Shown here: piece by piece, positions 45,171-48,192 of the stretch
Layout: every line of letters begins with the position of its first letter
Position numbering within the stretch: the first letter of the stretch is position 1
Assembly: GCA_012838895.1 (NCBI GenBank)
Contig: DUOJ01000135.1
Coordinates: 1 to 64,000 of the forward strand
Source of the DNA: Spirochaetales bacterium
GTDB lineage: Bacteria; Spirochaetota; Spirochaetia; Sphaerochaetales; Sphaerochaetaceae
Direction: 5' to 3'
DNA: 64,000 nucleotides
Translations under genes and position numbers: made by a program
The notes under the pieces: model-generated
Told to the model about the DNA's origin: nothing
The model's database searches: none
Seen by the model: only the letters and a program-made list of their open reading frames with translations

Positions 45171-46541
45171 GTGGAGAGTTTTAAGGTCGTTAACCACACC
45201 ATTAAAGGGGTGGCGATGAGTGGAATCAAGTTAAAAGAAGAGCCACCGCGCAACTTTATGAGTGGGGTAAAAGAGGTGGGTTATATCTACAAAGATGGCT
45301 CTTACCGTGAATGGCAATGGCACTCACTAGCGACTATAGACGAGGAGAGTTACCTCCTCTTCGACCGCTTGGAGATCTACCATTTCAACGCAATAGCCGA
45401 CACCCTCCGCCCTAAGGCGCTCCCCCTCTTAAGGAATTTGGCTAAAGCTCTACAAACCCTCCCCCCCTCTTTTATAAACCTCAACTGTGGCCTTATTGAG
45501 ACGTGGAGAATCTACTTCTTAGGTGACGACTCAGTCTTAATTTTGCCCCAATCCCTCTCCCTCCTCTTCCTCCAAATTACACCGCCAGAGATCCGTGCCC
45601 ACTATTTTGATTACTATCTAAAACCCAACCTAGAGGCCCCATTCACCCTTTGTCACCAATTTACCCAATTCTTGTACTTCGCTATAACAGGCTCTCTCCC
45701 CTATGGTGATGAGAAAGTGCGCCTCGATAAATGGCGCCATCTCCCCATCGCTTTGGTAGCTAAAAACCTAAAAGAAGAGGAGGCGGCCTGGATTGACTCA
45801 ACCCTCTCCCTTAAGGGGGCAGAGCAGCGTCAAATAGCCTCAAGTGCCTACAGTGGCGAGGAGAATCTCGCTTGGTGGCTCGATAAAAGCAGTGACTTCA
45901 CTTGGCCCGTTGAGTTGGAAGAGGGTGAGGGAATAGCGACGTTTAGAGAAGAACAAGATAAGCGGGTAGCGAGGCGCCTCTTTTGGAAAAAACGGGGGCC
46001 CTTAATTGTAACCTTAGTTATTGGGGGACTTATAGTGATCTCATTCGTATCGTCCATTATCTCAAAACAGCTTGCCCCCCCCTCGACAGCTAACCTCTCG
46101 CCTGTGGAGATTATTGAGTCGTTTATAGAGGGGCAAGACAACCTCGATGTCACCCAGATGGGGGCAGCTCTCGCACGCGGGACTAAGAACCCTTTTGAGA
46201 GAGAGAGCTCAACCCTCTTTGTCACCACTAAAGTGCGTGAAGCTTACGAGAGGTACAACCCTTTAATCAATGCCCGCGAATGGGTCGCTGAGGGGCGCCC
46301 CCCTGTTGAAGAGAGCTCCCTCCTTTGGGGAAACTTGGAGTACTCAATTGAAGAGACCTCACCCCTAACCTACCGCTTAACAACCCTCTTTTTAGCCCCT
46401 AAGGGGGGTGAAGAGGCGCTCTTAATCGAGGAGATTGAACGGGTAATCGATTTCACCTTTAGAGAGAAGAAAAACTACTATTTAATCGATAAGATTGAGA
46501 TAATTGAAGAGACTCCCCTTAAGAGTTATCGCCTCGATTGA
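45171..46541 (+). CDS. Hypothetical single-TM protein with kinase-like cytoplasmic region
   Basis: GTG start 2 nt after NFACT stop; TM segment GPLIVTLVIGGLIVISFVSSII; weak resemblance to degenerate protein-kinase C-lobe. Confidence 0.6.
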   Translation: MESFKVVNHTIKGVAMSGIKLKEEPPRNFMSGVKEVGYIYKDGSYREWQWHSLATIDEESYLLFDRLEIYHFNAIADTLRPKALPLLRNLAKALQTLPPSFINLNCGLIETWRIYFLGDDSVLILPQSLSLLFLQITPPEIRAHYFDYYLKPNLEAPFTLCHQFTQFLYFAITGSLPYGDEKVRLDKWRHLPIALVAKNLKEEEAAWIDSTLSLKGAEQRQIASSAYSGEENLAWWLDKSSDFTWPVELEEGEGIATFREEQDKRVARRLFWKKRGPLIVTLVIGGLIVISFVSSIISKQLAPPSTANLSPVEIIESFIEGQDNLDVTQMGAALARGTKNPFERESSTLFVTTKVREAYERYNPLINAREWVAEGRPPVEESSLLWGNLEYSIEETSPLTYRLTTLFLAPKGGEEALLIEEIERVIDFTFREKKNYYLIDKIEIIEETPLKSYRLD

Positions 46542-47421
46542 GCAGAGAGATTATCTTATCCTCTTCATCGGGGTGGACCCAGTTGACATTAGGCAGCGAT
46601 TTAAAGAAGGTCATTTGGCGCTTGGCGTATTGGCGTGAGTTACGAACGATTAGGTGGGCAATATCGCGACGCCCCATCGAAGGGTTCTCTCTGGCAATAC
46701 AAAACTCACGATAACCAATCCCCTGCATCGCTGGCCACTCTTTTTTAGCCCCCATTTGAAAAAGGCGCTCAATTTCTTCCTCCAACCCATCGTTAAACAT
46801 CTCCTCCACCCGCTCTTCGAGGCGTTCAAGAAGCTCATCTTTATCGCGGTAGAGGCCAATAATTAAGGGATTGACCCCTTCCCTCGCTTTAGTTGGAAGG
46901 GAGAAATCAGAGAGCGGTTTGCCCGTCTCTTCGTACACCTCTAAGGCGCGCGTTAAGCGATAGCGGTCGGCGGGGTGGATCTTTTCGGCCGAAAGGGGGT
47001 CGACCCGTTGGAGTTCCCTATGAGCCCACTCTAATCCCCGCTCTTTAACCTTTTGAGCAACGAGTTTGCGCACCTCGGGGTTACTCTTAGGGGAGGTGGG
47101 GAGGCCGTAGTAGAAGTGCTTAAAGTAGTAGGCCGTACCCCCACAAACGATGGGGATTCTACCTTTAGAGACAATCTCACAATGCGCCTCATCGGCCAAC
47201 TTAACAAACTCCCCCACCGAGAAGGGTTCATAGGGCTCTTTGATATCTATCAAGTAGTGGGGAATTTGTGCCATAAGCTCATTAGAAGGTTTAGCCGACC
47301 CAATATTGAGATGGCGATAAATCTGCTTAGAGTCGGCATTTATTACACTATAGTTGGTTGAGAAGAGACGCTTCAGAAGAGCTGTCTTACCTACCCCAGT
47401 GGGGCCAAAAAGGAAAATCAG
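46519..47421 (-). CDS. miaA: tRNA dimethylallyltransferase, probable noncanonical start
   Basis: IFLFGPTGVGKTALLKRLFSTNYSVINADSKQIYRHLNIGSAKPSNELMAQIPHYLIDIKEP; frame is open from immediately after the rpoZ TAG; only CTG (47421) or ATT (47418) available as start near SD AAGGAG. Confidence 0.88.
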   Translation of the reverse strand: MIFLFGPTGVGKTALLKRLFSTNYSVINADSKQIYRHLNIGSAKPSNELMAQIPHYLIDIKEPYEPFSVGEFVKLADEAHCEIVSKGRIPIVCGGTAYYFKHFYYGLPTSPKSNPEVRKLVAQKVKERGLEWAHRELQRVDPLSAEKIHPADRYRLTRALEVYEETGKPLSDFSLPTKAREGVNPLIIGLYRDKDELLERLEERVEEMFNDGLEEEIERLFQMGAKKEWPAMQGIGYREFCIARENPSMGRRDIAHLIVRNSRQYAKRQMTFFKSLPNVNWVHPDEEDKIISLLNRGDNS

Positions 47422-47424
47422 CCC

Positions 47425-47622
47425 CTACTCCTTGTCGTCTGTGGTAAACTCGATCTCCTGGGTTAGCACTTGTTTGAGGACTTTAGAGACAACTTTTTCG
47501 TTGGAGGGCTCTCCCTCTTCACTCTCTTGTGCCGCTACAATATTAGAGAGACTAATGGCTACACAGGTGGTCTCGTAGACGTTGTGTTCTTTATCAATTA
47601 AGACATCTAATGGAATGCTCAA
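47425..47622 (-). CDS. rpoZ: RNA polymerase omega subunit (RpoZ-like)
   Basis: MSIPLDVLIDKEHNVYETTCVAISLSNIVAAQ; position between cmk and miaA. Confidence 0.65.
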   Translation of the reverse strand: MSIPLDVLIDKEHNVYETTCVAISLSNIVAAQESEEGEPSNEKVVSKVLKQVLTQEIEFTTDDKE

Positions 47623-47667: not shown

Positions 47668-48192
47668 TTACTTTTTTTGCCTAGAGGAGGCCGCCTCAAC
47701 GATTAGGGTAGCAATCTCTTGGGCACTAAGATTATCGGTATTTATCACAAGGTCGGCAACAGCTGGGTCGGTATTATCGATTGAATAAATTCGCTTGTAA
47801 CGTTTAGTATCTTTTCTATCGCGCCGTTTAGTCTCTTTGAGGCGCTCTTCAAGGGAGCCCCCCTCCCTTTCGTGTATGCGTGCCACACGCACCTCAAGGG
47901 ACCCCTCTAGGTAGACCTTCAAGTCGGCCTCCTTTAAGACCCAAATAGCTAAACGGGAACCCAAAACACAGTTTTTCTGCTCCATTGCCATCTCAACTTG
48001 TCGCCGATCGAGCTCTAGGTCGATTGAGTCATCCCTCTCAGCCATCTTACAAAAGGTCCAAAAATCGATTCCCCGCTCCTCAGCTAAGTTACGAAAAGTG
48101 AAGTTTATAAGGGGGTAACCGGTAATTTGAGAGACCAGAGTACTAACAGTAGTGTTACCACATCCGCTTCTACCCGAAATTGCTATCCTCAT
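47668..48192 (-). CDS. cmk: Cytidylate (CMP/dCMP) kinase-like
   Basis: MRIAISGRSGCGNTTVSTLVSQITGYPLINFTFRNLAEERG. Confidence 0.8.
   Translation of the reverse strand: MRIAISGRSGCGNTTVSTLVSQITGYPLINFTFRNLAEERGIDFWTFCKMAERDDSIDLELDRRQVEMAMEQKNCVLGSRLAIWVLKEADLKVYLEGSLEVRVARIHEREGGSLEERLKETKRRDRKDTKRYKRIYSIDNTDPAVADLVINTDNLSAQEIATLIVEAASSRQKK

Follow-up and report, generated by a model that had tools for sequence, protein, structure and literature searches.

To our knowledge, few bacterial non-canonical start codons have been characterised. Proven examples are infC, which begins at AUU in E. coli and at ATC in Streptomyces, and the Streptomyces gene sigR, which begins at GTC (PMC5472188). Closely spaced gene pairs provide a second comparison. 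In galT-galK, reinitiation occurs at a spacing of +3 nt (PMC12548453), and trpE-trpD shows coupling of termination and reinitiation (PMC12548453; PMC6728339). The rpoZ-miaA junction described here has features of both. Like infC and sigR, its miaA is a conserved protein-coding gene without an ATG, GTG or TTG start, of the kind whose starts gene callers misplace. As in galT-galK and trpE-trpD, its putative start lies a few nucleotides from the upstream stop codon, and the last codons of the upstream gene contain the Shine-Dalgarno (SD) sequence. The differences are equally clear. The infC and sigR starts were shown experimentally and are regulated through IF3, whereas the present case concerns a tRNA-modification enzyme that is probably initiated at CUG; moreover, the known coupled pairs restart at canonical codons. 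Bacterial non-AUG starts are thus a known kind of feature. Open-access searches found nothing on the rpoZ-miaA junction, and as far as that literature goes the gene, the codon and the series of genomes with intermediates look new.

The junction is located in a window of 64,000 nucleotides (contig DUOJ01000135.1) from a Sphaerochaetaceae MAG, and all features discussed are on the minus strand. The upstream open reading frame (47425-47622) begins at TTG, ends at TAG (47427-47425) and has the C-terminus DDKE. Its match to the omega profile is weak (46 bits, under the cut-off of 76); judging by this match and by its position before miaA, which is conserved in the family, it is rpoZ, encoding the omega subunit of RNA polymerase. 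Upstream of rpoZ, a cytidylate kinase gene (47668-48192) matches the archaeal-type model TIGR02173 at 145 bits, far better than it matches the bacterial cmk model. The rpoZ frame closes with GAC GAC AAG GAG and TAG. It is followed by GGG, the sole codon before the CTG, then by CTG ATT TTC CTT TTT and by the P-loop codons GGC CCC ACT GGG GTA GGT AAG ACA. Re-reading the minus strand confirmed this sequence and the positions of TAG, CTG and ATT as given in the initial annotation. The last two codons of rpoZ, Lys-Glu, form an SD-like AAGGAG (47428-47433) that lies 6 nt before the CTG (47419-47421), the most likely start codon of miaA. The adjoining ATT (47416-47418) is either a second candidate start or a constrained second codon. 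On the same strand, the CTG lies 3 nt past the rpoZ TAG, within the close spacing of a termination-reinitiation pair.

The identity of the downstream gene is well supported. Translated from the codon after TAG, the frame matches TIGR00174 at 284 bits (cut-off 149) across profile positions 1-287 of 288, and the first residue aligned is the one encoded by CTG. Further matches were found to PF01715 and to solved bacterial MiaA structures, and both the P-loop GPTGVGKT (47383-47406, from reading the sequence) and NADSKQIY are present. Counted from the CTG, miaA (46519-47421) encodes a tRNA dimethylallyltransferase of 300 aa. The gene is single-copy, and no second miaA that could serve as a source of MiaA was found in the genome. 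The first in-frame ATG (47272-47274) is internal to miaA and is not its start, according to the sequence reading and the coding constraint upstream of it. A start there had been said to cost the protein its P-loop and ADSKQIY motifs, and indeed the mechanical open reading frame from this ATG is 251 aa long and lacks both. A caller restricted to ATG, GTG and TTG would choose it, as would suit a miaA that is decaying or that is made from this ATG as a protein without a P-loop. However, the 49 codons from the CTG to this ATG are intact and show 73-80% protein identity to g17, g2 and G020. Their differences from relatives fall mainly at third positions, and together with the high identity this argues that they are under protein-level constraint. 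All MiaA motifs are present, and miaB, whose product is the next enzyme and acts on the MiaA product, is retained. Decay or a truncated MiaA is accordingly extremely improbable. Annotation restricted to ATG, GTG and TTG is nevertheless expected to remove the P-loop from this MiaA.

A codon scan of the miaA frame from the TAG to 47274 found no ATG, GTG or TTG, as the initial annotation had reported, and the frame is shut by the TAG immediately upstream. A three-frame scan showed that the two remaining frames that run into the P-loop, open for 20 and 13 codons, are equally empty of these codons. Since no frame offers a start, a single insertion or deletion at the junction could not restore a normal one, and repair of this kind was rejected. 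With coding constraint extending to the CTG, no canonical start is compatible with a complete MiaA.

Comparison with the rest of the family shows how unusual this is. Adjacency of rpoZ and miaA is general across the Sphaerochaetaceae, and the named relatives drawn from the genome collection are MAGs of that family. Their junctions have the same gene order and the same proteins, and are likewise very short or overlapping. The junction was read in 128 family genomes whose 5' region is intact. Of these, 124 have kept a canonical start no more than 45 codons from the P-loop and 4 have none, this genome being one of those that lost it. In 109 of the 119 genomes where rpoZ was recognised, canonical starts are confined to the tail of rpoZ, in a frame overlapping it; in 7, one is found at the rpoZ stop or after it. 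When the rpoZ tail was re-drawn with synonymous codons, a start was expected in 97 +/- 4 of 118 genomes and was observed in 116, a comparison that covers related, non-independent genomes. This suggests that canonical miaA starts are normally maintained by selection, acting through synonymous codon choice in rpoZ.

The same survey bears on whether the UAG is read through to give an RpoZ-MiaA fusion as the source of MiaA. The initial annotation had noted that rpoZ and miaA share a frame. This is true here, where a single stop separates them, but not elsewhere in the family. Counted from the rpoZ stop, the miaA codon at position -5 from the P-loop lies at a distance of 1 mod 3 in 105 of the 119 genomes and of 2 mod 3 in 13; a distance of 0 mod 3 occurs in this genome only (1/119). 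What does recur is the missing canonical start, for G032 and G044 are also start-less and lack the shared frame. In addition, the rpoZ of relatives ends at the same DKE, with TAA or TAG as the stop. The present genome has RF1, and TAG is more frequent than either other stop in the window, where it ends 21 of the 49 long open reading frames. Recoding of the stop codon was rejected on these last two grounds. With a frame that is not conserved and a stop that is not reassigned, a readthrough fusion is hardly credible, and the shared frame is an incidental feature confined to this genome. Four routes to MiaA had originally been listed: a CTG start, an ATT start, coupled reinitiation and readthrough. 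The CTG with its SD AAGGAG is now favoured and ATT stands as the alternative, while frame, RF1 and TAG usage disfavour readthrough.

The four start-less genomes are the present one, G032, G044 and G042. G032 and G044 are two species of one related genus (HGW-Spirochaetae-4 and -2 MAGs); being close, they were counted as one lineage. Their in-frame stop is found elsewhere than in the present genome, 11 codons ahead of the P-loop, and is followed by GATAAGGAATAATCAC CTG ATT TTC. In G016, a third species of their genus, the sole canonical start codons are a TTG and a GTG that lie 22-24 codons upstream, and the same AAGGAG...CTG ATT is present. The ATG of other relatives (G001, G020, G047, G004, G014 and G030) is formed by rpoZ codons of the type xAT GTx, encoding Asp, His or Asn and then Val. 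At the corresponding site this genome has the rpoZ codons GAG ATC GAG (Glu-Ile-Glu, 47449-47457), and the overlapping-frame ATG is absent. It has likewise been lost from G032/G044 (GAC ATC) and G016 (GAG GTC). What remains in this genome and in G032/G044 after loss of the rpoZ-internal ATG is AAGGAG or AAGGAA, with CTG ATT 6-7 nt further on. The distant G042 (genus g13; L084) has a miaA frame open for 28 codons before the P-loop without ATG, GTG or TTG, and the end of its rpoZ is not identifiable.

These relatives also speak to the quality of the sequence. The genome is one MAG of 143 contigs, 85% complete, and its genus is represented by one genome in the comparison, so a substitution error might mask a normal start, for example an NTG at 47421. 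Against this, an insertion or deletion cannot account for the missing start, the CTG is common to G032, G044, G016, G001 and G020, and G032 and G044 are separately assembled MAGs that lack a start as well. A sequencing or assembly error is therefore very unlikely.

Conservation of the start region was assessed on a tree of RpoB, AlaS and MiaA (2089 columns). In this tree g1 (this genome), g2, g17 and g21 fall into one clade (support 99.9/100) that excludes g5 and g15 and whose internal order is unresolved. Synonymous sites are near saturation: of about 20 conserved Leu sites, any two genomes use an identical codon at just 2-7. A set of three lineages (G000, which is this genome, G032 and G016) was picked by the missing near start, not by codon. 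Of 20 Leu sites, only the CTG at -5 has an identical codon in all three. Clade-wide it is conserved in 5/7 genomes, more than any other of 13 Leu sites, though not universally, as G035 and G047 have CTC at this position. In G035 the ATG is also lost, and TTG or GTG is its start option. G000 and G032 alone, which have no start at all, agree at 5 of 23 Leu sites; this signal is weak, so the inference from CTG conservation rests on the larger sets. The share of CTG among Leu codons is 5.0% in this window and 5.5% in G001, compared with 25-32% in G032, G016 and G020. The SD match is strong in the clade and weak in the nearest sister genera. Its duplex energy is -7.8 kcal/mol here and in G016 and G001 and -5.1 in G032/G044, against only -1.0 to -2.4 kcal/mol in g5, g15 and g20; these values assume the standard anti-SD, as 16S was not found in the MAG.

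The neighbouring ATT is conserved as well, so CTG is not distinguished by codon conservation. At -4 the ATT is kept in 6/7 clade genomes, the best of 10 Ile sites. As a codon it is rare in G016, at 11% of Ile codons, and makes up about 20% in G032 and G020. Initiation could then occur at AUU 47418, as in E. coli infC, where this codon is a proven start (PMC5472188), with the CUG as a spacer or minor start. Its presence in this genome is little surprise, however, because ATT is the commonest Ile codon of the window (52%). The SD would lie 9-10 nt away, a less usual spacing than the 6-7 nt to CTG, and an AUU start would shorten the beta-1 strand covered by the MiaA profile by one residue. Initiation at AUU is thus unlikely, and CUG is preferred.

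From this evidence, miaA probably initiates at CUG 47421 by means of the SD embedded in rpoZ, fed by ribosomes that terminate 3 nt upstream. The AAGGAG at the end of rpoZ would serve as the miaA SD, and the CUG would be read by initiator fMet-tRNA. Initiation would probably be assisted by ribosomes fresh from termination at the UAG. The SD and the CUG-AUU site may have arisen downstream of rpoZ, close to the root of the g1, g2, g17 and g21 clade, and the older overlapping-frame start in the rpoZ tail would have been lost later, in this genome and in g17. That loss may have occurred either once or twice, as the tree fits both. We infer three parts of this account: the use of CUG rather than AUU, the dependence on rpoZ translation and the order of the evolutionary steps.

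Two further candidates were considered in connection with the CUG. Relaxation of the initiator tRNA was rejected, none being evident from an ordinary anticodon stem with the standard GGG/CCC. A hairpin of the GGGGCU/GGCCCC type is possible at the start, but folding is no better than that of shuffled sequences (z -0.24), and relatives lack the hairpin sequence. In E. coli, a CUG start yields about 0.86% of the AUG level (Hecht 2017, as quoted in PMC11497404). With so weak a codon, the cell may require little MiaA, or the yield may be raised by context and coupling. In a more far-reaching version, the clade has replaced the canonical miaA start, which overlapped rpoZ, by a CUG that is under selection and functions solely through termination-reinitiation after rpoZ. 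Low MiaA synthesis would thereby be tied, as a regulatory device, to omega translation and to initiation fidelity (IF3). This version is speculative and somewhat unlikely.

The case is of interest because a conserved tRNA-modification enzyme apparently has a non-canonical start in several species. Relatives that keep the older ATG together with the CUG site supply an evolutionary series for the origin of such starts.

Some related observations were made on infC and on other miaA genes. At L195 (contig C113) of this genome, infC apparently begins at TTG behind AAAGGAGAG, not at AUU or AUC as in E. coli and Streptomyces. In G072, from another family of the class, the miaA frame (L094) runs for 24 codons without a canonical start, and shortly before it there is an ATG in a different frame (cgATGccattcctCTGgta). 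This may be an indel error, a frameshift or a further non-canonical start. In the small Sphaerochaetaceae genome G005, a MiaA match (C10:3065-3946) contains one in-frame TAG.
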